Assembly (NCBI GenBank): GCA_003963405.1
Contig: RXIY01000001.1
Coordinates: 1-53,309, forward strand
Direction: 5' to 3'
Source of the DNA: Hyphomicrobiales bacterium
GTDB lineage: Bacteria > Pseudomonadota > Alphaproteobacteria > Rhizobiales > Beijerinckiaceae
DNA: 53,309 nucleotides
Positions 30,842-52,106 of this stretch are shown here, piece after piece. The notes below the pieces were generated by a model. The model had not been told where the DNA came from. It saw only the letters and a program-made list of their open reading frames with translations, and made no database searches. A program made the position numbers and the translations under genes. Each line of letters starts with the position of its first letter. The first letter of the stretch is position 1.

Positions 30842-32338
<1,497 letters not shown>

Positions 32339-39528: not shown

Positions 39529-39603
<75 letters not shown>

Positions 39604-39736: not shown

Positions 39737-39768
39737 GCGCCGCACGCGAAGATGTTACGGGCGCAAAA

Positions 39769-40341
39769 TTGAAAATTGTTATCGTCGATGAAAGTCCGAT
39801 CCGGGCCGCGATCCTCGAGGAGGGTTTGCGGGAAGCGGGGTTTGTCGAAGTCGAGCGCATCGCGCAGACGCACAATCTGCTCAAGCGCGTCTACGCCATC
39901 GACCCCGACGTCATTCTGATCGATCTCGAAAACCCCTCCCGCGACGAACTCGAACAGATGTTCCAGGTCAGCCGCGCCGTCCGGCGGCCGGTCGCCATGT
40001 TCGTCGATCAGTCGGACGCAGCCTCGATTCAGGCGTCGGTGGACGCCGGCGTCTCCGCCTATATCGTCGACGGCCTGAAGAAAGAACGGATCAGGTCGAT
40101 CCTCGACCTCTGCATCTCGCGATTCAACGCCTTCGCGAGCCTGCAAAGCGAACTCGAGCGTGCGAAATCGGATTTGCTGGCGCGCAAGACGATCGACCGC
40201 GCCAAGGGGATTTTGATGAAGTCCAAAAACCTGTCGGAGGACGAGGCCTATCGGCTGCTGCGCGGCGTCGCCATGCGCGAGAACAAGAGAATCGCCGATA
40301 TCGCACAGTCCGTCATTACGGCGTCGGAGTTGCTGAAATGA
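39769..40341 (+). CDS. nasT: NasT, ANTAR-domain antitermination response regulator
   Basis: A 190-residue protein: pseudo-receiver 1-115 (LKIVIVDESPIRAAI; D54-like acidic residue in ILIDLENPS), coiled linker, and a C-terminal ANTAR domain from about 135 with RAKGILMKSKNLSEDEAYRLLRGVAMRENKRIADIA. ANTAR proteins bind paired hexaloop hairpins and prevent termination. No in-frame ATG precedes; TTG 39769 is the start. The stop overlaps nasS (ATGA). NasS holds NasT inactive without nitrate or nitrite. Its predicted target is the leader at 41657-41759. Confidence 0.9.
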   Translation: MKIVIVDESPIRAAILEEGLREAGFVEVERIAQTHNLLKRVYAIDPDVILIDLENPSRDELEQMFQVSRAVRRPVAMFVDQSDAASIQASVDAGVSAYIVDGLKKERIRSILDLCISRFNAFASLQSELERAKSDLLARKTIDRAKGILMKSKNLSEDEAYRLLRGVAMRENKRIADIAQSVITASELLK

Positions 40342-41492
40342 TGTCCCGCCGTCCGATCAAGATCGGATTCATGCCGCTTGTCGATGCGGCCAGTCTCTTC
40401 ATTGCGGTCGACAAGGGTTTTGCGGCGGTCGAGGGCCTCGACGTCGAGCTCGTGCGCGAGGTGTCCTGGTCCAACATTCGCGATCGTCTCGCCATCGGCC
40501 ATTATGACGCAGCGCATCTCCTTGCGCCGATGGCCATCGCCGCGACGCTCGGCCTCAACCAGGCGAGAGTCGCGCTCGTGGCGCCCTTCAATCTGGCCTT
40601 CAACGGCAACGCCATAACAGTCTCGCGCGATCTCCATGCCCGCCTGCTTGCGGCCGCGGACGGCGATATCGCCGACCCGTCCGTCAGCGCCCGCGCCCTG
40701 GAAAAAATCATCCGCGAAGGCGAGCGGCGTGGCGCTGAGCCGCTGACCTTCGGCATGACGTTTCCCTTCTCTGCGCATAATTACCAGTTGCGCTACTGGA
40801 TGGCTCAAGGAGGCGTCGATCCTGATCGGGATCTTCGCCTTGTCGTGCTGCCGCCGCCCTTCATGGCGGAAAATCTCGCCAAGGGACAGGTCGACGGCTT
40901 CTGCGTCGGCGCTCCCTGGAGCGAGGTCGCCGCGGAAGCCGGCGTCGGCGTCATTCTCCACTCCGCAAGCAGGATCTTCAGCCCGACCCCGGAGAAGACC
41001 CTGGCGATGCGGGAGCGCATGGCCAAAGACGAGCCCTCGCTCGTCGTCGCGCTCATCAACGCCTGTCTGAAAGCTTCGGATTTCATCGCATCGCCACAGA
41101 ATGACGAGGAAGTCGCGTCGATACTCGCACGCCCGAACCGGGTTGGCGTCGAGGCGCGGATACTCCGTCGCATCCTCTACGACCGCCGGAATGCATCGAC
41201 TCCCGGCGCCGACGGCGATCTGATGCTTGGCGACCGTGTCCTCGGCCGTCCCTTTCCCTATCAGGCGGCCTGGCTCTATGCGCAGATGGCGCGCTGGGGG
41301 CAGGCGCGCTTGTCGATCGACGCCCTTGGCGCGTCGAAACGCGTGTTCGATCCTTGCTTTTTCGACAGGGCCGAGGGCTGCGCGCATAAAACCGCGCCGC
41401 GTCCCATCACGGCCTTCGCCGGTCCTTCCTTCGACGCCGGCGACATCCCGGCCTATGTCGCGGGCTTCGCAATTGGCGCGAAGCCCGAGTGA
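40338..41492 (+). CDS. nasS: NasS, nitrate/nitrite sensor of the NrtA family
   Basis: A 384-residue protein related to the nitrate-binding NrtA/CmpA proteins (IKIGFMPLVDAASLFIAVDKGF; PPPFMAENLAKGQVDGFCVGAPW) but without signal peptide or twin-arginine motif, so cytoplasmic. This is the known form of NasS, which binds nitrate or nitrite and then releases NasT. ATG 40338 overlaps the nasT stop (ATGA). The gene is upstream of the leader region of the nitrate operon. Confidence 0.9.
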   Translation: MMSRRPIKIGFMPLVDAASLFIAVDKGFAAVEGLDVELVREVSWSNIRDRLAIGHYDAAHLLAPMAIAATLGLNQARVALVAPFNLAFNGNAITVSRDLHARLLAAADGDIADPSVSARALEKIIREGERRGAEPLTFGMTFPFSAHNYQLRYWMAQGGVDPDRDLRLVVLPPPFMAENLAKGQVDGFCVGAPWSEVAAEAGVGVILHSASRIFSPTPEKTLAMRERMAKDEPSLVVALINACLKASDFIASPQNDEEVASILARPNRVGVEARILRRILYDRRNASTPGADGDLMLGDRVLGRPFPYQAAWLYAQMARWGQARLSIDALGASKRVFDPCFFDRAEGCAHKTAPRPITAFAGPSFDAGDIPAYVAGFAIGAKPE

Positions 41493-41656
41493 CTTTTTTG
41501 AAGTCGTTCGGCCTCATGGTTTGGCGCCCTACGCCCAGCGCCGCGGCGCCGAACAAGGCGCGCCCGGACGCCCCCGTTCAAGCCCGCCCCCTTGTTTTGA
41601 GTGGCGTTCGCCGCATGAGCCCGACTTGGCGCCGCTATTGCAATTGAGTTCTTGAA
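41493..41656 (+). promoter_or_regulatory. Upstream control region of the nitrate operon with sigma-54 promoter
   Basis: The gap after nasS. TTGGCGCC (41626-41633), four bases, TTGCA (41638-41642): GG and GC are exactly 10 bases apart, matching the -24/-12 consensus. Predicted start is about 41652-41655, which puts the first leader hairpin almost at the 5' end. Upstream sequence is GC-rich with repeats of GGCGCC; no NtrC-type palindrome is evident, so the activator site is not identified. Confidence 0.62.
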
Positions 41657-41759
41657 CGCGCCGCTCGTGGCGCGGAGCCCATCGAAGGGCTCATGCAGCA
41701 ACGCCGCTGTGACGAAAACGTCCGAAGCTTTCGGACTTTTCGCGCAGCGGCTTTTTTTT
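41657..41759 (+). promoter_or_regulatory. ANTAR-type antitermination leader with intrinsic terminator
   Basis: Four structures follow each other. Hairpin 0: CGCGCC / GGCGCG, 41657-41674, loop GCTCGT. Hairpin P1: GAGCCC-ATCGAA-GGGCTC, 41675-41692. Hairpin P2: CAGC-AACGCC-GCTG, 41696-41709. Both P1 and P2 have six-base loops with A at position 1 and G at position 4, the two-hexaloop signature recognised by ANTAR regulators. Terminator: GCCGCTG (41703-41709), an inner hairpin GTCCGAA / TTCGGAC, CAGCGGC (41745-41751), then eight T (41752-41759). The 3' arm of P2 is the 5' arm of the terminator, so P1-P2 and terminator exclude each other. NasT is encoded upstream. The first gene starts at 41796. 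Confidence 0.85.
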
Positions 41760-41795
41760 CGCCACACGCGCGGCGCGCAGGATCGGAGGTAATCG

Positions 41796-43106
41796 ATGTC
41801 GACGACATCAGGCGGTCTTTCAGCAGGGGCGATGCTCGATCGAAGAAGCGTGCTGAAAGGCGCGGCGGCCACTGTAGCGGCGGCCGCGACCGGCGCGCCG
41901 CGCGGCGTGTTCGCCGAGTCGGCGGGTCCCGAGACGACGAAAGCGGTCCTTGGCTACATCGCCCTCACGGATGCAGCGCCGCTCATTGTCGCAAAGGAAA
42001 AGGGGCTCTTTGCAAAATACGGGATGCCCGATGTCGAGGTCGTCAAACAGGCGTCGTGGGGCGCGACCCGCGACAATCTCGTTCTCGGCGGCGCGTCCAA
42101 TGGCGTCGACGGCGCCCATATTCTGACGCCCATGCCCTTCCTCATCGCCACAGGCAAGGTGACGCAGAACAACACGCCGACGCCGATGTATATCCTCGCG
42201 CGGCTCAACCTCGATTGCCAGGGGATTTCGGTCTCCAACGAATATGTGGATCTCAAGGCGACCGTAAAGGCGGATTCGCTGAAAGCCGCTTTCGCGCAAA
42301 AGAAAGCCCAGGGAAAAGAGGTCAAGGTCGCCATGACCTTCCCCGGCGGCACGCATGATCTCTGGCTTCGTTACTGGCTCGCGGCGGCGGGCATAGACCC
42401 CGACAAGGACGTCTCCACCATCGTGGTTCCGCCGCCGCAGATGGTCGCGAATATGAAGGTCGGCAATATGGACGCCTTCTGCGTCGGCGAGCCCTGGAAC
42501 GAGCAGCTCGTCACGCAGGGCGTCGGCTACTCGGCCTGCACGACGAGCGAGCTGTGGCAAAAACATCCCGAGAAGGCGCTCGGCATGCGCGCGGAATGGG
42601 TCGACAGGAATCCAAAAGCCGCTCGGGCGCTCGTCGCCGCCGTGATCGAGGCGCAGCAATGGTCCGACAGGAATGAAAATAAAGCCGAAGTCGCGGCGAT
42701 CATCGGACGCCGGCAATGGCTCAGTGCGCCGGTACCCGACATTGCGGGCCGCCTGAAAGGCGACATCAATTACGGCGCGGGCCGCACGGAGAAAGGCACG
42801 ACATACGGGATGAAATTCTGGCGCGACAACGCCTCATATCCTTTCAAGAGCCATGACGCCTGGTTCGTTACAGAGGAAATCCGCTGGGGAAAGCTGGATC
42901 CGAAGACCGACATCAAGGGCCTCGTCGCCAAGGTCAATCGCGAAGACATATGGCGCGAAGCGGCAAAGACCGCCGGAGTCTCGCAAAGGGACATTCCCTC
43001 GTCGACGTCGCGCGGGAAGGAGACCTTCTTCGACGGGAAGGTCTTCGATCCCGAAAGACCGCTCGATTATCTGAAAAGCCAATCCATCAAGCGCGCCGTG
43101 GCCTGA
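41796..43106 (+). CDS. nrtA: Nitrate ABC transporter, substrate-binding protein
   Basis: A 436-residue protein with a twin-arginine export signal (LDRRSVLKGAAATVAAA, residues 15-31) and the NrtA core (GYIALTDAAPLIVAKEKGLF; FPGGTHDLWLRYWL; PPPQMVANMKVGNMDAFCVGEPW). It binds nitrate and possibly nitrite in the periplasm and delivers it to NrtB. ATG 41796 follows GGAGGT at five bases. It is the first gene behind the antitermination leader. Confidence 0.92.
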   Translation: MSTTSGGLSAGAMLDRRSVLKGAAATVAAAATGAPRGVFAESAGPETTKAVLGYIALTDAAPLIVAKEKGLFAKYGMPDVEVVKQASWGATRDNLVLGGASNGVDGAHILTPMPFLIATGKVTQNNTPTPMYILARLNLDCQGISVSNEYVDLKATVKADSLKAAFAQKKAQGKEVKVAMTFPGGTHDLWLRYWLAAAGIDPDKDVSTIVVPPPQMVANMKVGNMDAFCVGEPWNEQLVTQGVGYSACTTSELWQKHPEKALGMRAEWVDRNPKAARALVAAVIEAQQWSDRNENKAEVAAIIGRRQWLSAPVPDIAGRLKGDINYGAGRTEKGTTYGMKFWRDNASYPFKSHDAWFVTEEIRWGKLDPKTDIKGLVAKVNREDIWREAAKTAGVSQRDIPSSTSRGKETFFDGKVFDPERPLDYLKSQSIKRAVA

Positions 43107-43125: not shown

Positions 43126-44016
43126 ATGACGATGCCCCTCACGCGCGATGAGCGCACGCCAGCCATCTACGACGACGAAATCGAGGAAGCCTTCCGACGC
43201 CGCCGCACGCCGTTGCTGATCAAATACAAGGAACCGATTAAGGCGTTCTTCGCCGCGCTCCTGCCCCCGCTGATCACGCTCGCGCTGCTTCTTCTCGTCT
43301 GGCAGCTTCTCTGCGCCAGGCCGACTGCGGCGCTTCCCTCGCCCGCGCGCATCTGGTCAGAGGCGTCCGACCTCATTCTGCATCCTTTCTACCAGGCAGG
43401 CTCGCAGGACATGGGATTGGGGTGGCGCGTCGTCACATCCCTGCGGCGCGTTGCGGTCGGTTTCGGGCTTGCGAGCGTCGCGGGGGTGCTTCTCGGCGCC
43501 TTTGTCGGTCAGTCACAGTGGGCGACGCGCGGACTCGATCCGATTTTTCAGGTGTTGCGCACCGTGCCTCCGCTCGCGTGGCTGCCGATCTCGCTCGCCG
43601 CCTTCCGCGATAGCCAGCCGTCGGCCATCTTCGTGATCTTCATCACCTCGATCTGGCCGATCATCATCAACACCGCCGTCGGCATCAGGAACATTCCGCA
43701 AGATTACCGCAACGTCGCGGCGGTGCTGCGTCTCAACCAGCTCGAGTTCTTCTGGAAGATCATGATCCCCTCCGCGGCTCCCTATATCTTCACGGGCCTG
43801 CGCATCGGCATTGGCCTCTCCTGGCTCGCCATCGTCGCCGCCGAAATGCTCACGGGCGGCGTCGGCGTCGGCTTCTTCATCTGGGACGCCTGGAACTCAT
43901 CGCGACTGCCCGACATCTTCGTTGCGCTCGCCTATATCGGCGTCACGGGATTCATCCTCGATCGTCTCGTCGCTCTTCTCGGCTATCTCGCGACGCGCGG
44001 CATGCAGACGAACTAG
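43126..44016 (+). CDS. nrtB: Nitrate ABC transporter, permease
   Basis: A 296-residue permease of the NrtB/SsuC type with about six helices and the EAA motif region (AAVLRLNQLEFFWKIMIPSAAPYIFTG, about 200-226). It forms the membrane channel with NrtC as ATPase. Starts at ATG 43126 behind GAGAGCAG, 19 bases after nrtA; nrtC begins 11 bases after its stop. Confidence 0.92.
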   Translation: MTMPLTRDERTPAIYDDEIEEAFRRRRTPLLIKYKEPIKAFFAALLPPLITLALLLLVWQLLCARPTAALPSPARIWSEASDLILHPFYQAGSQDMGLGWRVVTSLRRVAVGFGLASVAGVLLGAFVGQSQWATRGLDPIFQVLRTVPPLAWLPISLAAFRDSQPSAIFVIFITSIWPIIINTAVGIRNIPQDYRNVAAVLRLNQLEFFWKIMIPSAAPYIFTGLRIGIGLSWLAIVAAEMLTGGVGVGFFIWDAWNSSRLPDIFVALAYIGVTGFILDRLVALLGYLATRGMQTN

Positions 44017-44027
44017 GGAAGCGAACA

Positions 44028-44822
44028 ATGCCCGGTTATCTCAAGATCGAAAACGTCGACAAAATCTTCACGAGCGGCGGGAAGACCGCCAGGGTTCTCG
44101 AAAATGTCTCGCTGCGGGTCGAAAAGGGAGAGTTCATCTCCATCATCGGCCATTCCGGCTGCGGTAAATCCACGCTTCTCAATATCGTCGCCGGATTGAC
44201 GCGCGCGACGAACGGCGTCGTCCTGCTCGAGGAACAGGAAGTCGACGCGCCCGGTCCGGACCGCGCCGTCGTGTTCCAGAACCACTCGCTTCTTCCCTGG
44301 CTCTCCGCCTACGACAATGTGCGGCTGGCCGTGGACAAGGTCTTTGGCTCCTCGGCGAGCCGCGCCGAGCGGCGCGACTGGACCCTGCGGAATCTGGAGC
44401 TCGTGCGCATGCTCGAGGCGAAGGACAAGCGGCCAGGTGAAATCTCGGGCGGCATGAAACAACGCGTCGGCATTGCGCGCGCCCTTGCGATGCAGCCGAA
44501 AGTCCTGCTGCTCGACGAGCCTTTCGGCGCACTCGACGCTCTGACGCGGGCGCATTTGCAGGACCAGGTGATGGCGCTACAGGACAGCCTCGGCAATACG
44601 GTGATGATGGTCACGCACGACGTCGACGAGGCGGTTCTCCTGTCCGACCGTATCGTGATGATGACGAATGGGCCGCAGGCGACCATCGGCGAGGTGCTCG
44701 ACGTTGCGCTGCCCCGCCCGCGCGACCGCATCGCGCTCGCAACGGATCCGGTCTATCTCGCCTGCCGCCAGCGCGTGTTGCAGTTCCTCTACGAACGTCA
44801 TCGCTACGTGGAGGCGGCGTGA
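44028..44822 (+). CDS. nrtC: Nitrate ABC transporter, ATP-binding protein
   Basis: A 264-residue ATPase: Walker [10 protein letters not shown] (41-49), Q-loop region [17 protein letters not shown], signature ISGGMKQR, Walker [15 protein letters not shown] and switch histidine in MVTHDVDEA. It is the short NrtD-like form without the extra NrtA-like regulatory domain of cyanobacterial NrtC. The stop overlaps the start of the next gene (TGATG). Confidence 0.92.
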
Positions 44823-46048
44823 TGGAAAATCGCGGGAACCCGGAAAGACTCGTCGTCGTTGGCGGCGGCATGGCCGCGACGCGGCTCATCGAAGAGGTGA
44901 CGGCGGCGGCGCCCGGACGCTATCGCATCACCGTGGTGGGGGAGGAGCCGCAACCTGCCTATAATCGCGTCCTGCTCTCCTGTGTGCTTGCGGGCGAGGC
45001 CGACATTGCCGACATCGCGCTGAAGCCCGAGCAGTGGTGGCGCTCGGCCGGCGTCGAGTTTCTGCGTGGGCGCCGGGCGGTGGAGATCGACCGCGTCGCG
45101 CGCAAGGTGCGGCTCGACGACGGCGCCCGCCTTTCCTATTGCAAACTCGTGCTCGCCACAGGGTCGCGGGCCCTGCGATTGGATATCGACGGCGCCAGGC
45201 TTCCGGGCGTCCATACGTTTCGCGACCTTGCGGATGTCGAAGCGCTGTCGCGGCTCGGCGCCAACGGCAAGAATGTCCTCGTCATTGGCGGCGGCCTGCT
45301 TGGGCTCGAGGCCGCGCATGGGCTCGTACGGCGCGGCGCTAGAGTGACGCTCGCCCATGTGATGGACCGGCTGATGGAGCGCCAGCTCGACGCCGACGGC
45401 GGCGCGCTCCTGAAAACTCTCGTCGAAACGACCGGCGTCCGCGTCCTGCTCGGCGCCGACACGAAGCGCATCGCCGGCGCGGGGCGGGTCGAGCAAGTCG
45501 AATTCGCCGACGGATCGGCCCTCGAGGCCGACGCTGTCGTCTTCGCCGTCGGCGTTTGCGCCAATGCCGAGCTCGCCCATGACGCAGGCCTCGCCGTAAA
45601 CCGTGGCGTCATCGTGAACGACGGCCTCGTGACCGACGACCCGGACATATTCGCACTGGGCGAATGCGCCGAACATCGGGGCGTCTGTTACGGGCTGGTG
45701 GAGCCGGCCTATGAACAGGCGCGGGTTCTTGCCGCGCGCCTTGCCGGCCATGAGGCGCAGTATGGAGGGAGCGTCGTCTCCACCAATCTCAAAGTCTCGG
45801 GGGTGCGGGTCTTTTCCGCCGGCGACCATCTCGGGCGGCCGGGCGCGGACGTCTTGTACTGCAAGGACCCGCGCATGGGCGTCTACAGGAAGCTCGTCGT
45901 CGAGGACGACAGGCTGACCGGCGCCATTCTTTTGGGCGAGACGAGCGGCGCCCGCGATTGCCTTGATCTCATCCGCTCCGGCCGAAGCGTTGCAAACGTG
46001 CGCGATCAGCTGATGTTCGGCGCGCCGCGCCTTCAGGAGGCCGCCTGA
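44822..46048 (+). CDS. FAD-dependent NAD(P)H oxidoreductase, like the N-terminal part of NirB
   Basis: A 408-residue flavoprotein corresponding to the first half of the NADH nitrite reductase large subunit NirB. Two dinucleotide motifs: VVVGGGMAATRL near the N-terminus for FAD and VLVIGGGLLGLEAAHGL near 158 for NAD(P)H; ALGECAEHRG is the FAD-binding C-terminal motif. The siroheme part of NirB is missing here and is provided by the separate next gene. It probably feeds electrons to nitrite or nitrate reductase. ATG 44822 overlaps the nrtC stop. Confidence 0.85.
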   Translation: MENRGNPERLVVVGGGMAATRLIEEVTAAAPGRYRITVVGEEPQPAYNRVLLSCVLAGEADIADIALKPEQWWRSAGVEFLRGRRAVEIDRVARKVRLDDGARLSYCKLVLATGSRALRLDIDGARLPGVHTFRDLADVEALSRLGANGKNVLVIGGGLLGLEAAHGLVRRGARVTLAHVMDRLMERQLDADGGALLKTLVETTGVRVLLGADTKRIAGAGRVEQVEFADGSALEADAVVFAVGVCANAELAHDAGLAVNRGVIVNDGLVTDDPDIFALGECAEHRGVCYGLVEPAYEQARVLAARLAGHEAQYGGSVVSTNLKVSGVRVFSAGDHLGRPGADVLYCKDPRMGVYRKLVVEDDRLTGAILLGETSGARDCLDLIRSGRSVANVRDQLMFGAPRLQEAA

Positions 46049-46049
46049 C

Positions 46050-47804
46050 ATGACTGTTGACTTCACACTCGATCAGAAACGCTATCTCGAGGGCTTCGCA
46101 GCCGGCCTCGCGGCGCGCGGCCGCGGCGTCTCTCCCGCAACGCAGGGCAGGACGTCGGGTCCGGAGGCCGCGCTGCTGGAAGCGCAGGATCGCGCCGCCG
46201 CCTCGGGCGCGAAGCTTTGCGATCAGGAGAAGTGGAAGCGCGAGGAACATCCTTTCGACGCCTATCCGCGTCTCGTCACACAGGCGCGGGAGAACCGCCC
46301 GCCCAAGCCCGCGGACAATTTTCGCTGGCGTTATTACGGCCTCTTCTATGTCGCTCCGGCGCAGGACGCCTATATGTGCCGGCTGCGCATTCCCAATGGC
46401 GCGCTGACGCATTGGCAGCTGGCTGGACTTGCCGGTCTTTCGGAAAATTTCGGCGGCGGCTATCTGCATGTGACAACGCGCGCCAATGTTCAGATCCGCG
46501 AGATCGCGCCGTCGGACGCCGTCAATGTCGTGGAGGCGGTGCAGGATCTCGGCCTCTGGTCGAAAGGCGCCGGCGCCGACAATATCCGCAATATCACGGG
46601 AACCCCGACCGCGGGCGTCGATCCGCAGGAGCTGATCGACACGCGCCCTTATGCGCGCGCGATGCACCATCACATCCTCAATGACCGCTCGCTCTTCGGT
46701 CTGCCTCGCAAATTCAACATCGCCTTCGACGGGGCGGGCCTGATCGGCGCGCTGGAAGACACGAACGACATCGGATTTCAGGCCGTTGAGATCGCGGCGG
46801 GCCATGACGCGCCTCCCGGCGTCTATTTCCGGCTGACGCTCGGCGGCGTCACGGGGCACAAGGATTTCGCGCGCGATACGGGCGTGATCGTGCGGCCCGA
46901 CGAGGCGATCGAGGTCGCGGACAGAATTCTTCGCGTCTTCATCGACCACGGCGACCGCGCCAACCGCGCCAGAGCGCGGCTGAAGTATCTGCTGGACGCC
47001 TGGGGTTTCGAAAAATTCCTGGCGGCCGTCGAGGAAAAACTCGAACGCAGGCTCTTGCGCAGCCCGGCTGGCGCGATCCTTCCGCGCCCGCGACAGGGCC
47101 GCGGCGCGCATATCGGCGTGCACGAGCAAAAGCAGCCGGGCCTGCGGTGGATTGGCGTCGGCCTGCCGGCCGGCCGGCTGACCCCCGCGCAGGCCAGGGG
47201 ATTGGCCGATGTGGCGGCGAAATATGGCGACGGCGGCGTGCGGCTCACCGTCTGGCAGAATTTGCTGCTGACGGGCGTCGGCGCGGAAAAGGTCGCGCAG
47301 GCGGAGGCGGCGATCGAGGCGCTCGGTCTCTACACGCGCGCGTCGCCTATCCGGGCCGGCCTCGTCGCCTGCACGGGCAGTTCCGGCTGCCGTTTCGCCG
47401 CCGCGGACACGAAACGCCACGCCGTGGAAATCGCCGACTGCTGCGAGCGCGCGGCGCCCGTCGATACGCCGGTGAACATACATCTCACGGGCTGCCATCA
47501 CTCCTGCGCGCAGCATTACATTGGCGACATCGGCTTGATCGGCGCACGCGTTCCGATCAATGACGAAGGCGATGCGGTGGAAGGGTATCATATCGTCGTC
47601 GGCGGCGGCTTCGCCGAGAACGCCGCAATCGGCCGGGAACTCTATCGCAACATCCGCGCGGAGGACGCCCCACGCGTCGTCGCAAGCCTCCTTCGCGCCT
47701 ATCGGAAAAATCGCGAGAGCGAGGCCGAGGATTTCGCCGCCTTCGCGCGACGCGTCGAAACGGAGACCATTCGTCGTCTCGCCGATGCAGAGGAGACCGC
47801 ATGA
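46050..47804 (+). CDS. Siroheme assimilatory nitrite reductase (NirA-like)
   Basis: A 584-residue hemoprotein of the nitrite/sulfite reductase family, six-electron reduction of nitrite to ammonium. Both duplicated ferredoxin-like halves are present (TTRANVQIREI near 142-152; LTVWQNLLLTGV near 399-410). The [4Fe-4S]-siroheme ligands are C441 and C447 (CTGSSGC) and C482 and C486 (GCHHSC). The length and lack of a flavin part resemble ferredoxin-type NirA. It has an extra N-terminal stretch FTLDQKRYLEGFAAGLAA similar to the N-terminus of the next protein. Stop overlaps the next start (ATGA). Confidence 0.9.
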   Translation: MTVDFTLDQKRYLEGFAAGLAARGRGVSPATQGRTSGPEAALLEAQDRAAASGAKLCDQEKWKREEHPFDAYPRLVTQARENRPPKPADNFRWRYYGLFYVAPAQDAYMCRLRIPNGALTHWQLAGLAGLSENFGGGYLHVTTRANVQIREIAPSDAVNVVEAVQDLGLWSKGAGADNIRNITGTPTAGVDPQELIDTRPYARAMHHHILNDRSLFGLPRKFNIAFDGAGLIGALEDTNDIGFQAVEIAAGHDAPPGVYFRLTLGGVTGHKDFARDTGVIVRPDEAIEVADRILRVFIDHGDRANRARARLKYLLDAWGFEKFLAAVEEKLERRLLRSPAGAILPRPRQGRGAHIGVHEQKQPGLRWIGVGLPAGRLTPAQARGLADVAAKYGDGGVRLTVWQNLLLTGVGAEKVAQAEAAIEALGLYTRASPIRAGLVACTGSSGCRFAAADTKRHAVEIADCCERAAPVDTPVNIHLTGCHHSCAQHYIGDIGLIGARVPINDEGDAVEGYHIVVGGGFAENAAIGRELYRNIRAEDAPRVVASLLRAYRKNRESEAEDFAAFARRVETETIRRLADAEETA

Positions 47805-49399
47805 ATCATACTGCGCCGCCGGCCCTTCTCATTCCTGAAACCGCGCCTTTCTCCACCGAACAGCGCGCCTGGCTCAACGGCTTTTTCGCCGGCTTCGCGG
47901 CGCCGGAAGGCGCCGCCGTCACCCCGCTCAGCCCGGAAGGCGCAAAGGCCATCATGGCTGGCGCCGCCGCTGACGATGACGACGGCGAGGCGCCCTGGCG
48001 CGATCCCACGCTTGCCCTCGACAAACGCATGCAGCTCGCCGACGGCCGGCCCTTGCGCAGGCGTCTGATGGCCGCGATGGCGCAGCAGGACTGCGGCCAA
48101 TGCGGTTACAATTGCGAGGCCTACGCCGAGGCGATCGTGTCGCGGAAAGAGGCGCGCCTCAATCTCTGCGCGCCGGGCGGCAAGGAGACTGCGCGCATGT
48201 TGAAAACGCTCGCGGAAGAAATGCGCGACGCGCCCGCCACGACGACCGCCCCCGCCGTCGAGCCGGACGCCGCGCCGGTCTGCGCGCCCGGGCGCTCGCG
48301 CGGCGCGCCCGTCCCCGCGACGTTCCTCGCCCGGCGGCGGCTGAACAAGGGGGGCTCCGAGAAAGAGACCTGGCATCTCGACTTCGACATATCGGAGAGC
48401 GGGCTGGATTACGCCGCGGGCGACAGCTTCGGCGTCTTCGTGAAAAACAATCTGGGCCTGGTCGATCAGATCATCGCCATGCTCGGCGCCTCGCATGTGA
48501 CGCCCGTGCGCGGCAAGACCCTGCGCGAGACATTGCAGACCGATCTGTCGCTTTCGCCTGCGCCGGACGCGCTGTTCGACCTCATTTCCTTCGTCACCGG
48601 CGGCGCGGAGCGCGAGAAGGCCCGGCGTCTGGCGCAGGGCGAGGATCCCGACGGCGACGCCGCGACGCTCGACGTGCTCGCGGCGCTGCAAAAATTTCCC
48701 GGCGCGCGGCCGCATCCCGAAGCCTTCGTCGAGGCGCTCGAACCGCTGCAGCCGCGCCTCTATTCGATCTCGTCGTCTCCGAAAGCCGCGCCGGGGCGTC
48801 TGTCGCTCACGGTCGACGCCGTTCGTTACGTTGTCGGCAAGCGCAAGCGGCTGGGCGTCGCCTCCACTTTCCTCGCCGAACGGATCGCGCCCGGCGAGAC
48901 GCTGCCGGTCTATGTGCAGGCGGCGCACGGCTTCGCGCTGCCCGGCGAGGGATCCAGACCGATCATCATGGTGGGTCCCGGAACGGGCGTCGCGCCGTTT
49001 CGCGCCTTTCTGCAGGAGCGCGCAGCGACTGGCGCGACAGGACGGAACTGGCTGTTTTTCGGCCATCAGCGCGCCGCCCATGATTTCTTCTACGCCGAGG
49101 AGTTCGACGCGATGAAGGCGACTGGCCTGCTGACGCGGCTGTCACTCGCCTGGTCGCGCGACGGCGGAGAAAAATTCTACGTCCAGGATCGCATGCGCCA
49201 GGCGGGCCGCGAGCTTTGGGCCTGGCTCGCCGAGGGTGCGCATTTCTATGTCTGCGGCGACGCGCAACGCATGGCCAAGGACGTGGAGAGGGCGCTCGTC
49301 GACATCGTCGCCGAATATGGCGCGCGCAGCGTGGACGAGGCGATCGCTTTCGTGGCGGGACTGAAGAAATCCGGCCGCTACCAGCAGGACGTTTATTGA
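47801..49399 (+). CDS. Fe-S/FAD/NAD(P)-binding reductase (CysJ-like without flavodoxin domain)
   Basis: A 532-residue protein. N-terminal motif FSTEQRAWLNGFFAGFAA (17-34), then a four-cysteine Fe-S unit C98, C101, C105, C123 (CGQCGYNC...C), then an FAD-binding module with RLYSISSSP (about 323-331) and an NAD(P)H module with GPGTGVAPFRAFLQER. In CysJ the FMN flavodoxin domain would occupy the place of the Fe-S unit; here it is replaced. It should pass electrons from NAD(P)H through FAD and [4Fe-4S] to NirA or NasA. Gene overlaps nirA by four bases; nasA follows after ten. Confidence 0.85.
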   Translation: MNHTAPPALLIPETAPFSTEQRAWLNGFFAGFAAPEGAAVTPLSPEGAKAIMAGAAADDDDGEAPWRDPTLALDKRMQLADGRPLRRRLMAAMAQQDCGQCGYNCEAYAEAIVSRKEARLNLCAPGGKETARMLKTLAEEMRDAPATTTAPAVEPDAAPVCAPGRSRGAPVPATFLARRRLNKGGSEKETWHLDFDISESGLDYAAGDSFGVFVKNNLGLVDQIIAMLGASHVTPVRGKTLRETLQTDLSLSPAPDALFDLISFVTGGAEREKARRLAQGEDPDGDAATLDVLAALQKFPGARPHPEAFVEALEPLQPRLYSISSSPKAAPGRLSLTVDAVRYVVGKRKRLGVASTFLAERIAPGETLPVYVQAAHGFALPGEGSRPIIMVGPGTGVAPFRAFLQERAATGATGRNWLFFGHQRAAHDFFYAEEFDAMKATGLLTRLSLAWSRDGGEKFYVQDRMRQAGRELWAWLAEGAHFYVCGDAQRMAKDVERALVDIVAEYGARSVDEAIAFVAGLKKSGRYQQDVY

Positions 49400-49409
49400 G
49401 GGAAGTCCG

Positions 49410-52106
49410 ATGCTCGACGTAGTTTCAATCTTCGGCGCCGGCGCGGAGCCCCCTGCGCTCTCGCCCCGCGCGACGGCGACGCGAACGACCTGCCCTTATT
49501 GCGGCGTGGGATGCGGCGTCCTTGCATCCGCCAATGACGCGGGCGGCGGCGACGTCTCCGGCGATCCGTCCCATCCGTCGAATTTCGGGCGCCTGTGTTC
49601 CAAAGGGGCCGCTCTGGGGGAAACGCTCGGCCTCGAGGGTCGCCTGCTGCATCCCATGCGGCGGCTTGGGGATGGGCGTTTCGAGCGGGTGTCCTGGGAG
49701 AGCGCTCTCGACGCCGCAGCCGGGGAATTCAGGCGCATCATCGATCGCCATGGGCCCGACGCCGTCGCCTTTTATCTCTCCGGTCAACTGCTCACGGAAG
49801 ATTACTATGTCGCCAACAAGCTGATGAAAGGCTTCATCGGTTCGGCGAATGTCGACACCAATTCGAGACTCTGTATGGCGTCCGCGGTCGCGGGACAAAA
49901 GCGCGCCTTTGGCGCGGACGCCGTGCCCGCCTGCTACGAGGATCTCGACGCTGCGGATCTGATCGTGCTCGTGGGGTCGAACGCCGCGTGGTGCCACCCC
50001 GTCCTCTTCCAAAGAATGTTGCGAAATCGCGACGCGCGGGGCGCCCGCCTCGTCGTCATCGACACACGCCGAACGGCGACGGCGGAAAGCGCCGATCTTT
50101 TTCTTCAGATCGCGCCGGGCGCGGATCAGGCGCTGTTTTGCGGCCTGCTTGTCCATCTTGCGAAAAACGGAGCCCTCGACGAGGATTTCATCGAGCGGCG
50201 CACCGACGGCTTCCAGGCGGTTCTCGAGCAGGCGCGAGGCATCTCTCCGACGGTCGCGGCGACAGCGGCCGCGGCCGGCCTGCACGAAACCGACGTTGCG
50301 GTCTTTTTCGAGATGTTCGCGCAGACGTCGCGCGTGGTCACCGCCTTCTCTCAGGGCGTGAACCAGTCGGCGCAGGGAACAGACAAGGTCAACGCCATCG
50401 TCAATTGCCACCTCGCCGCCGGCCGCATCGGAAAAGTCGGAGCGTCGCCCTTTTCGCTCACGGGTCAGCCGAACGCCATGGGCGGTCGCGAGGTGGGCGG
50501 CCTCGCGAACAGCCTCGCGGCCCATATGGGGTTCGAGCCCGAGAGCGTCGACCGGGTTCGACGGTTCTGGCGGGCGCCACGGATGGCCGAACGGGAGGGA
50601 CGCAAGGCCGTCGAGATGTTCGAGGCGATCGCGCGGCGAGAGATCAAGGCGCTTTGGATCGCGGGCGCAAATCCGGCGGCCTCGCTGCCGGACGCAGACG
50701 CCGCGCGCGCGGCATTGGGAACGCTCGATCTCCTCGTCGTTTCCGACAATGTGGCATCCAACGACACGATCAACAGCGGCGCGCATATTCTGCTCCCCGC
50801 CCACGCCTGGGGCGAGAAAAATGGAACGGTGACGAATTCGGAGCGCCGGATTTCCCGGCAGCGCCCCTTCCTTTCCGCGCCCGGAGAGACGCGAGCCGAT
50901 TGGGCGATCTTCGCCGGTTTTGCCCGCAGGCTCGGTTTTCCGGGCTTCGACTTTCACTCGGCGGCGCACGTCTTTCGCGAACATGCCGCCCTTTCCGCTT
51001 TCGAGAACGAGGGGGCGCGCGACTTCGACATCGGCGCCCTCGCCCATTTGAGCGACGACGGCTACGATACTTTGGAGCCGACGCAATGGCCCATCGGGCC
51101 GGGCGAAAGGGTCGGGCGCGCGCGGCTTTTCGACAAGGGCCCGTTTTATACCCCGGATGGGCGCGCGCGGTTCGTCACGCTCGCGCCCCCCGCGCTGGCC
51201 TCTGCGCCAAGCCCCGAATTTCCGATGCGGCTCAACACCGGGCGCGTGCGCGACCAATGGCATACGATGACCCGCACGGGGAGGAGTCCTCGCCTCGCCC
51301 GCCACGCCCCCGAGCCCTTCGTCGAAATCAATCCGGGCGACGCACGGCTTCTCGGCGTCGAAGATCACGGCTTTGCGCGCGTCTCCACTGAGCATGGTTT
51401 CTGCGTTTTGCGGGCGATCGTGACCGAGCGCCAGCCCAGCGGGCAGATATTTGCGCCGATTCACTGGACCGACGAAACATCCGCTCAGGCGCGGATCGGC
51501 GCGCTCGTGCGGCCGTGCGTCGATCCTTTTTCCGGACAGCCCGAATCGAAAGCGACGCCGGCGGCGGTCGCCCCCGGCGCATTTGCGCGCCAGGGCGTCC
51601 TGCTGGCGCGGCAGCCGCTGGCGCTGCCTCGAAATATCTGGTGGGCGCGCATCGCCGTGGCGGGGGGCGTCGGTTACCGTGTCGCAGGCGACGAAGACTG
51701 CGCCTTCTGGCTCGCCTTCATGCGAAGCAATTGCTCCCGGGACGTTATCGAATATAGCGATGAGGCCAGGGGAATTTTGCGCGCCGCGGCCTTTCTGGCC
51801 GACCGCGCCGAATTGTTCCTGTCACTTGGACCCTCGGCGCCGGCAGCGGACGCGGGGTTTGATTTGAACGCGATCGAGGGGATGAGCGCCTCGCAGCGTT
51901 TCATGCTGCTGTCCGATGGTCAGGAGCCGCGCGACGCGCCGGGAGGTCACGCCGTCTGCGCCTGCTTTGGCGTGAGCGAAAAAGAAATCAAAGCCGCCAT
52001 AGCCACGGGCTGCAAGAGCGCCGCAGAGATCGGCCGGATGCTGCGCGCGGGAACGAATTGCGGCTCCTGTCTTCCGGAGATCGGGCGCATGCTCATGAAG
52101 CAATAG
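49410..52106 (+). CDS. nasA: Assimilatory nitrate reductase catalytic subunit
   Basis: An 898-residue molybdopterin oxidoreductase. N-terminal [4Fe-4S] ligands C28, C31, C35 (TTCPYCGVGCGV) and C63 (RLCSKG); Mo-bisMGD domains through about 700, with INTGRVRDQWHTMTRTG (about 604-620) in the dinucleotide-binding end. The C-terminal 50 residues form a BFD-like [2Fe-2S] domain (VCACFGVSEKEI...NCGSCLPEI), an electron-entry domain typical of NasA. Two-electron reduction of nitrate to nitrite in the cytoplasm. ATG 49410 follows GAGGGAAG. Last gene of the operon. Confidence 0.93.
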   Translation: MLDVVSIFGAGAEPPALSPRATATRTTCPYCGVGCGVLASANDAGGGDVSGDPSHPSNFGRLCSKGAALGETLGLEGRLLHPMRRLGDGRFERVSWESALDAAAGEFRRIIDRHGPDAVAFYLSGQLLTEDYYVANKLMKGFIGSANVDTNSRLCMASAVAGQKRAFGADAVPACYEDLDAADLIVLVGSNAAWCHPVLFQRMLRNRDARGARLVVIDTRRTATAESADLFLQIAPGADQALFCGLLVHLAKNGALDEDFIERRTDGFQAVLEQARGISPTVAATAAAAGLHETDVAVFFEMFAQTSRVVTAFSQGVNQSAQGTDKVNAIVNCHLAAGRIGKVGASPFSLTGQPNAMGGREVGGLANSLAAHMGFEPESVDRVRRFWRAPRMAEREGRKAVEMFEAIARREIKALWIAGANPAASLPDADAARAALGTLDLLVVSDNVASNDTINSGAHILLPAHAWGEKNGTVTNSERRISRQRPFLSAPGETRADWAIFAGFARRLGFPGFDFHSAAHVFREHAALSAFENEGARDFDIGALAHLSDDGYDTLEPTQWPIGPGERVGRARLFDKGPFYTPDGRARFVTLAPPALASAPSPEFPMRLNTGRVRDQWHTMTRTGRSPRLARHAPEPFVEINPGDARLLGVEDHGFARVSTEHGFCVLRAIVTERQPSGQIFAPIHWTDETSAQARIGALVRPCVDPFSGQPESKATPAAVAPGAFARQGVLLARQPLALPRNIWWARIAVAGGVGYRVAGDEDCAFWLAFMRSNCSRDVIEYSDEARGILRAAAFLADRAELFLSLGPSAPAADAGFDLNAIEGMSASQRFMLLSDGQEPRDAPGGHAVCACFGVSEKEIKAAIATGCKSAAEIGRMLRAGTNCGSCLPEIGRMLMKQ

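Follow-up and report, generated by a model that had tools for sequence, protein, structure and literature searches.

Control of nitrate assimilation through two gates is known from Klebsiella and Paracoccus, with Ntr control reported for Klebsiella (PMC5424462; this and the following accounts of published systems go by those parts of the cited papers that were available). The Klebsiella nasF system relies on NasR, a one-component protein with a NIT domain, for which a binding motif with two hairpins has been described (PMC7496416). In Paracoccus denitrificans, the nasABGHC operon is under the control of NasS-NasT, and of the two hairpins in its leader the first is required for expression, the second associated with attenuation; nitrate assimilation in this organism depends on NtrBC, and the tested NtrC site is located before nasT (PMC3795266, PMC5424462). 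NasS releases NasT upon nitrate or nitrite (PMC3795266), and in Bradyrhizobium diazoefficiens NasT acts on several genes, with hairpins predicted before some of them (PMC6759348). The target RNA of EutV from Enterococcus consists of tandem hairpins whose six-base loops carry A at position 1 and G at position 4 (A1/G4), the second hairpin being mutually exclusive with a terminator (PMC3369931, PMC8934654). EutV, an ANTAR dimer, must contact both hexaloops, one at a time, cycling from P1 to P2 (PMC8934654); a linker of 3 nt impaired a EutV leader, the linkers of the E. faecalis eut leaders being 5 to 12 nt long (PMC3369931).

The window, that is, the whole analyzed stretch of 53,309 nucleotides (contig RXIY01000001.1, positions 1 to 53,309, from a Hyphomicrobiales bacterium of the genus Methylocystis), carries an assimilatory nitrate operon that is, on the evidence of its sequence, very probably controlled by two gates in series, sigma-54-dependent initiation and NasT-dependent antitermination. 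The hairpin that occupies the predicted 5' end of the transcript is considered here in most detail.

The nitrate operon and its leader

The initial annotation had placed nasT and nasS directly upstream of the leader, and Pfam domains confirm both assignments. The genes of the locus are as follows:

39760..40341, + strand: nasT, ANTAR response regulator (PF03861, 69.2 bits; receiver domain PF00072, 38.7 bits; open reading frame listed from TTG 39559)
40338..41492, + strand: nasS, nitrate-sensor-like binding-fold protein (PF13379, NMT1_2, 244.9 bits)
41796..43106, + strand: nrtA, nitrate transporter binding protein with a Tat-type signal (PF13379, 359.1 bits; TIGR01409, 20 bits, cut-off 16.7)
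43126..44016, + strand: nrtB/ntrB permease (TIGR01183, 307.1 bits, cut-off 209.05)
44028..44822, + strand: nrtC/D ATPase (TIGR01184, 339.2 bits, cut-off 291.8)
44819..46048, + strand: NirB-like FAD/NAD reductase half (TIGR02374, 395.3 bits, below the cut-off of 578.35)
46050..47804, + strand: NirA-family nitrite reductase (NF007126, 966.2 bits, cut-off 523)
47801..49399, + strand: CysJ-like flavoprotein reductase (NF004859, 855.1 bits, cut-off 432)
49410..52106, + strand: molybdopterin oxidoreductase, nasA (assimilatory nitrate reductase) by context (PF00384, PF01568, PF04879, PF04324)

The product of the last gene was named NasA from its context, all NCBIfam models shown for it being below cut-off. 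The order nasT-nasS-leader-nrtA is also found in Methylocystis sp. MJC1.

Between nasS and nrtA, a promoter, a 5' hairpin, the hairpins P1 and P2, and a terminator had been proposed, and direct reading finds every one of them in its proposed place; the list below adds a hairpin at the end of nasS and a likely ribosome binding site:

41461..41487, + strand: terminator-like hairpin with a T run at the end of nasS (pattern match only)
41626..41642, + strand: sigma-54 -24/-12 element TTGGCGCCGCTATTGCA (GG-N10-GC exact, read directly)
about 41653, + strand: predicted transcript start (from spacing, 12 bases after the -12 C)
41657..41674, + strand: P0, 5'-terminal hairpin (arms CGCGCC/GGCGCG, loop GCUCGU)
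41675..41692, + strand: P1, hairpin GAGCCC-ATCGAA-GGGCTC (hexaloop AUCGAA, 41681-41686)
41696..41709, + strand: P2, hairpin CAGC/GCUG (hexaloop AACGCC, 41700-41705; two extra outward pairs possible)
41703..41759, + strand: intrinsic terminator (stem 41703-41751, eight T at 41752-41759), mutually exclusive with P2
41785..41789, + strand: GGAGG, likely the ribosome binding site of nrtA, judging from its sequence

The hexaloops of P1 and P2 both have A1/G4, just as the initial annotation had it, and both are closed by C:G. The 5' arm of the terminator (from 41703) comprises the 3' arm of P2 (41706-41709) and half of the P2 loop. The linker between P1 and P2 is 3 nt long if P2 is counted as a 4-bp core, and 0 to 5 nt in close relatives. 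The predicted fold of 41653-41800 (148 nt) has a z score of -5.69, none of 200 shuffles being equally stable; here the partner of the 5' arm of P0 is 41770-41777, downstream of the terminator, and not its own 3' arm. Folded alone, 41653-41674 forms the P0 hairpin at -11.5 kcal/mol (2 of 200 dinucleotide shuffles equally stable). Terminator-like pattern matches in this region, the hairpin at the end of nasS among them, number 15 against a shuffle mean of 12.9.

In the proposed mechanism, sigma-54 RNA polymerase would start near 41653 once an enhancer protein, most likely NtrC signaling nitrogen limitation, is active. Within the first 107 nt of the RNA, P0 and P1 would then form, followed by P2 or, alternatively, the terminator. 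In the absence of nitrate, NasS would hold NasT and the terminator would form; with nitrate or nitrite, NasS would free NasT, which would bind P1 and then P2, and P2, by occupying the 5' arm of the terminator, would allow transcription of nrtA and the genes behind it. The protein steps of the second gate are taken from Paracoccus NasS-NasT and Enterococcus EutV; the present analysis contributes the structures and the co-occurrence.

Recurrence of the leader and its promoter

A search of the whole window against Rfam returned only two tRNAs at the gathering score and nothing at the leader, and covariance models were therefore built here. (Matches around the leader at a permissive threshold belonged to unrelated families and were discarded.) Model R1 was derived from 18 leaders, including that of the window, and so is partly trained on the genus; model R2 was derived from 20 leaders, none of them from Methylocystis. 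With R2, 41675-41757 reaches 54.3 bits (E = 5.6e-12), and no other place in the window exceeds 14.1 bits (E = 0.055); the model also recovers 13 of 13 already known leaders in 11 further loci of the genus (E <= 1.8e-7). An antisense match at 41697-41776 (23.9 bits with R1, 12.4 bits with R2) is the mirror of the terminator palindrome and was rejected. In alignment A2, which includes the window leader, the P1 and terminator stems covary, with 25 cells changed on both sides versus 8.1 +/- 2.6 expected (0 of 500 shuffles); the overlap of the terminator with P2 is conserved, and the closing pair of P1 is C-G in 18 of 18 sequences. Comparative sequence analysis confirms the window leader as a predicted ANTAR two-hexaloop target RNA with an overlapping terminator and adjacent NasS-NasT genes.

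NasT is encoded in 31 of 39 Methylocystis genomes. A strong match to R1, at E <= 2.2e-8 in the NasT-bearing genomes, was found in all 31 of these versus 2 of the 8 without NasT (Fisher 8.6e-6, with a model partly trained on the genus). The two exceptions are G174 (59% complete) and G179 (97% complete); a third NasT-less genome has a weak match (E = 0.046), and completeness does not exceed 81% in five of the 8. Among the 55 places in the genus at E <= 2.1e-6, 54 were examined, near-identical pairs still being present among them; L049, from a genome of the same species, was excluded because its stretch is that of the window. The P2 loops of the 54 leaders are AACGCC (25), ATCGCC (18), AAAGCC (6), AATGCC and ATTGCC (2 each), and GACGCC (1), so that A1 is found in 53 and G4 in all 54. 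The P1 loop starts with A in 44 leaders, with U in 7, and with G in 2, the remaining leader having no such P1; G4 of P1 is not an independent result, as it served as the search criterion. The A1 rule is thus soft in P1 across the genus. Loss of the loops or of the terminator overlap in close relatives had been named as what would speak against the assignment: P2 retains A1/G4, while A1 of P1 is lost in 9 of 54.

The gene downstream of these leaders, identified by tblastn, is omp in 32 cases, nrtA in 9, and a NirB-like gene or nirA in 3, which makes omp the commonest target. No downstream gene was found for the remaining 10 leaders, 3 of which lie near contig ends and 7 of which (L098, L120, L123-L127) constitute a third group, followed by a small open frame that has KIAP or a similar motif near its start. 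The P1 loop of this third group starts with U, and P2 is AAAGCC in 6 of the 7; judging by eye alone, the small frame is followed by an MFS transporter in 4 cases and by a homospermidine-synthase-like frame in 2. The omp genes encode a secreted-looking family of about 380 to 450 amino acids, labelled by look only (e.g., L044 1078-2211, L003 9650-10999, and L132 3656-4906), that has no Pfam match, no NCBIfam match above cut-off, and no PDB sequence match with E below 0.25; a structure prediction from four sequences reached a mean pLDDT of 27.3, too low for use. RefSeq names the gene at the place of omp in Methylocystis sp. MJC1 an alpha-amylase. Before nasT, where M. rosea has omp, the window has a tRNA gene (39529-39600). 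In another alphaproteobacterial order, leaders L262 and L247 precede a gene of the Alginate_exp type, at 26.1 bits (above the cut-off of 25.2) and 22.3 bits (below it), respectively. Leaders L240, L248, L251, and L257 precede NrtA-like genes. The presence of the same leader before omp and Alginate_exp-type genes points to candidate nitrate entry proteins, omp among them.

The genome of the window encodes two ANTAR proteins, both NasT and each followed by NasS, one in the window and the other, 70% identical to it, on contig C114. Four leaders were found in this genome, all with GG-N10-GC and with a hairpin between the predicted start and P1: one precedes nrtA in the window, two lie on C114 (ahead of the second nas operon and of the omp gene upstream of nasT2), and the fourth precedes another omp gene, on contig C11. 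The second nas locus (C114:3000-14951) comprises omp2, nasT2, nasS2, the leader, a short NirB-like remnant, nirA2, a cysJ-like gene, and nasA2, and nrtABC is absent from this stretch. A genome of the same species, G163, has three nasT hits, one identical, one 86% identical, and one 72% identical, partial and with a stop codon.

In the genus, a same-strand leader lies no more than 4 kb upstream of nasT at 28 of 34 places, so that nasTS mostly sit behind a leader themselves, and at 10 of the 34 one lies within 2.5 kb downstream; the nasTS pair of the window has no leader before it. Beyond the genus, 58 of 80 named NasT loci, many of them from Bradyrhizobium, lack an R1 match (E <= 0.1) in the surrounding 5 kb, so this leader type is far from universal beside nasT. 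Six plasmid loci were also searched; R1 matches were obtained in Methylocystis sp. MJC1 (two leaders), Methylocella tundrae (1.2e-7), and Novosphingobium (5.7e-6), and none better than E = 0.17 in Sinorhizobium meliloti, Paracoccus pantotrophus, and Microvirga.

All these leader counts are lower bounds, because R1 misses a second class of leaders that was recognized through a weak R2 match (11.9 bits) in the stretch between nasS and a NirB-like gene in M. rosea (L132 6855-7048). There, a sigma-54-like element, CTGGCCCGAAAAGTGCA, is followed by CGGUC-AACGAC-GACCG at the predicted start, a middle hairpin CCGG-UCCG-CCGG, and then GAGCCC-AAAGUC-GGGCUC. Leaders of this class are present, each with its own sigma-54 element, in 22 of the 24 post-nasS loci of the genus that have no R1 leader there (L055-L073 and L075-L077; none in L054 and L074), the sequences being close relatives of each other. 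Of the 22 first loops, 21 read AACGAC and 1 reads AACGGC; the later loop has A1/G4 in 19 and G1/G4 in 3. In eight of these leaders that were folded and inspected by eye, no clear intrinsic terminator was found behind the leader; in most of the eight, GGUCGUC further downstream could pair with GACGACC of the first hairpin.

The -24/-12 element of the window agrees with the sigma-54 consensus at 12 of 13 positions. GG-N10-GC is located at the same place upstream of all 54 genus leaders examined. In a larger set of 127 leaders (54 from the genus, 29 of 37 family NrtA loci, 16 named, and 28 order-level leaders from 61 places listed), 119 have an element with a score of 9 of 12 or higher when any base is allowed at -12, versus 145 of 6,350 mononucleotide shuffles (2.3%). 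C occupies the -12 position in 53 of 53 genus leaders; all 16 named leaders and 17 of the 24 order-level ones have A or T there. Beyond the genus, the -12 element often reads TTGAA or TTGTA, not TTGCA, with unchanged spacing (L165, L137, L219, L224, and others). These elements bear on the idea that nrtA is transcribed mainly by read-through from nasTS, the leader merely attenuating and the sigma-54 site being unused. The collinearity of nasT, nasS, and nrtA and the leaders before 28 of 34 genus nasT places would fit such an arrangement; against it stand the sigma-54 elements at 119 of 127 leaders, the second class's own elements in 22 of 24 loci, and, in the window, a terminator-like hairpin, albeit a pattern match, that closes nasS. 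We consider read-through a highly improbable main source of nrtA transcripts.

The identity of the activator of the sigma-54 promoter is a separate question. The pattern TGC-N11-GCA has the half-site spacing of NtrC sites. It is found in 42 of 81 non-redundant upstream regions versus 10.4 +/- 3.0 expected, mostly 100 to 160 bases upstream of the -24 element; among the 13 spacings tested, spacing 16 is enriched as well (28 versus 9.5 +/- 2.3). The pattern is absent from the 825 bases upstream of the -24 element of the window, where the best resemblance to two NtrC consensuses is 8 of 11 and 8 of 13. Within up to 400 bases, it is present in 19 of 53 Methylocystis leaders and lacking in 34, and Methylocystis may have a different enhancer protein or a different site for it. 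The genome has an ntrC gene above its cut-off and rpoN in two pieces on two contigs. Another activator gene of the NtrC family (413.7 bits, under the ntrC cut-off) is located in the window at 30854-32281. As regards the two-step control put forward in the initial annotation, promoter, P1, P2, and terminator recur together and track NasT, and the promoter is supported by sequence and conservation; the part assigned to nitrogen limitation stands less firmly, for no NtrC-like site was found for the window, and we infer NtrC as its activator.

The 5'-terminal hairpin P0

The distance from the predicted +1 to P1 is 16 to 40 nt in 108 of 119 leaders. Since R1 begins at P1, P0 was not a criterion in the selection of leaders. 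Of the 127 rows, 39 were dropped (8 lacking a promoter, 17 lacking a P1 where the model starts, 6 with P1 within 12 nt, and 8 with a 5' A1/G4 hexaloop), and the remaining 88 were reduced to 39 regions differing by more than 30%; this filtered set replaced an earlier test on 49 regions, which also contained leaders whose 5' hairpin is P1. With the regions treated as independent, the mean minimum free energy (MFE) is -9.80 kcal/mol versus -5.55 kcal/mol for dinucleotide shuffles, and 22 of 39 regions rank at <= 0.05 (Fisher 5e-22). Regions with swapped halves average -5.56 (n = 1,482; Mann-Whitney 6e-11). The 14 genus regions alone give -7.94 versus -4.31, with 7 of 14 at rank <= 0.05. P0 is retained in the MFE fold of the leader up to the T run in 35 of 39. 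Not all genus leaders have a firm P0: no stable fold was obtained for L098, the values for L109 and L111 are about -4 kcal/mol, and L088 has just 4 nt ahead of P1.

Each position of the P0 stem shows mixed pair types, and the arms differ even within the genome of the window (CGCGCC/GGCGCG versus ACCACG/CGTGGT). This pattern also bears on the suggestion that P0 is a DNA palindrome serving as a repressor or activator operator over the start site, with the RNA hairpin as a by-product. An inverted repeat at about +5 to +22, which is what P0 amounts to, lies at the usual operator position. An operator, however, would be expected to keep its sequence, and here the arms vary between paralogous leaders and between groups with complementarity preserved; moreover, some relatives carry an ANTAR loop at P0. 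An operator role is accordingly improbable. To judge from these comparisons, P0 is a conserved RNA structure with changing arm sequences, a new addition to the leader type: neither a 5' hairpin before P1 nor three hexaloops are described in the available text of PMC3369931, PMC5424462, PMC6759348, PMC3795266, PMC7496416, and PMC8934654. The remark in the initial annotation that an extra 5' hairpin could be a stabilizer or a third contact has held up in that the hairpin is conserved in relatives; its loop in the window, GCUCGU, lacks the ANTAR signature.

From the predicted start to the P0 stem the median distance is 4 nt, and the P0 loops vary, those of 4 nt being the commonest (20 of 38), as would suit a hairpin that acts purely as a 5' stabilizer against RNA decay. 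Overhangs of up to 8 nt, on the other hand, would leave the 5' end accessible, and a purely stabilizing role is possible rather than probable. Somewhat better placed, though still tentative, is a reading in which P0 descends from, or stands in for, the first ANTAR hairpin and would serve here as a 5' structural element, either protecting the end or acting as an insulator against mispairing of the 5' end.

Leaders with a third hexaloop

In other lineages the hairpin at P0 does carry the ANTAR signature. In the loop-agnostic test, P0 has A1/G4 in 7 of 36 non-Methylocystis regions versus 0.41 +/- 0.60 (maximum 3) in 300 mononucleotide shuffles; the 7 include L033, a leader with a degenerate P1 place, and L213, with a 71-nt 5' stretch. 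In the class outside the order, a leader match was found in 16 of the 385 genomes searched (17 with the own one); of the 17 class-level places, all but L254 were read, yielding 9 non-redundant regions for the loop test. In 4 of these 9 the best P0 hexaloop closed by C:G is A1/G4 (strict count). In group f91, leaders are present in 4 of the 10 genomes searched; each of these four leaders, of which two are new, shows A1/G4 in P0, P1, and P2 (P0 loops AAGGAA, AAAGAC, AAUGGC, and AAAGAC). In f172, a second order with leaders in 2 of 4 genomes, P0 has A1/G4 in L247, L251, and L257, with the loops AAAGUU (an inner A-U pair is drawn in the MFE fold), AAGGAC, and AAGGUC; AACAAG, seen once, lacks A1/G4, and two further weak places in this order have no promoter. 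Some alphaproteobacterial leaders thus appear, by their predicted folds, to carry three tandem ANTAR hexaloops.

These leaders, together with the A1/G4 hairpin at the predicted start of the second genus class and the binding of single hexaloops by EutV, cycling from P1 to P2 (PMC8934654, in the text available), are what would speak for P0 as a third contact on which NasT loads before shifting to P1 and P2 as they emerge. In the window, position 4 of the P0 loop is C; in Methylocystis, only 1 of the 14 non-redundant regions of the window's leader type has A1/G4 in P0, and L033 and L213 weaken the count of 7. A third contact is unlikely, if less so than an operator. A broader evolutionary scheme may be sketched, with reserve, from the same observations. 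Alphaproteobacterial NasT leaders might be three-hairpin devices in which an A1/G4 P0 provides an early loading site for NasT (P0, then P1, then P2); some lineages might have lost the loop identity of P0 (the window type, Afipia and relatives) and others that of the middle hairpin (several genera of the same family and the second class of Methylocystis), the hairpin at the sigma-54 start usually being kept. In the family NrtA set, which was chosen regardless of P1, 26 of 39 rows have P2, a terminator, and a promoter, 5 have P2 but no promoter by score, and 8 have no P2 by pattern. In several genera of the family the 5' hairpin is the A1/G4 one; against the three-hairpin scheme, 10 of the 26 rows have no strict A1/G4 hairpin ahead of P2.

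The locus resembles Paracoccus NasS-NasT in that nasT (ANTAR) and nasS adjoin the operon and the leader has two hairpins of the known kind; unlike in Paracoccus, the sigma-54 element lies directly before the nrtA leader, P0 is placed between them, and the transporter is of the NrtABC type. It shares with NasR-nasF the two-step scheme of Ntr-dependent initiation and nitrate-dependent ANTAR antitermination, the protein steps here being deduced, but has the NasS-NasT pair in place of NasR with its NIT domain. The NasT targets of B. diazoefficiens include nos, nap, and nirA (PMC6759348, in the text available), whereas those found here are nrtA, the second nas operon, and omp genes. The two-gate logic as such is not new. 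The additions are a third hairpin with a fixed place at the 5' end and, in some lineages, a triple set of A1/G4 hexaloops. Compared with the EutV leaders, the leader of the window has this third, 5'-terminal hairpin and, with P2 counted as 4 bp, a 3-nt linker versus 5 to 12 nt, and U or G is allowed at position 1 of P1 in the genus; the three-hexaloop leaders would provide a natural test of the model in which an ANTAR protein cycles through one hexaloop at a time (PMC8934654, as far as its available text goes).
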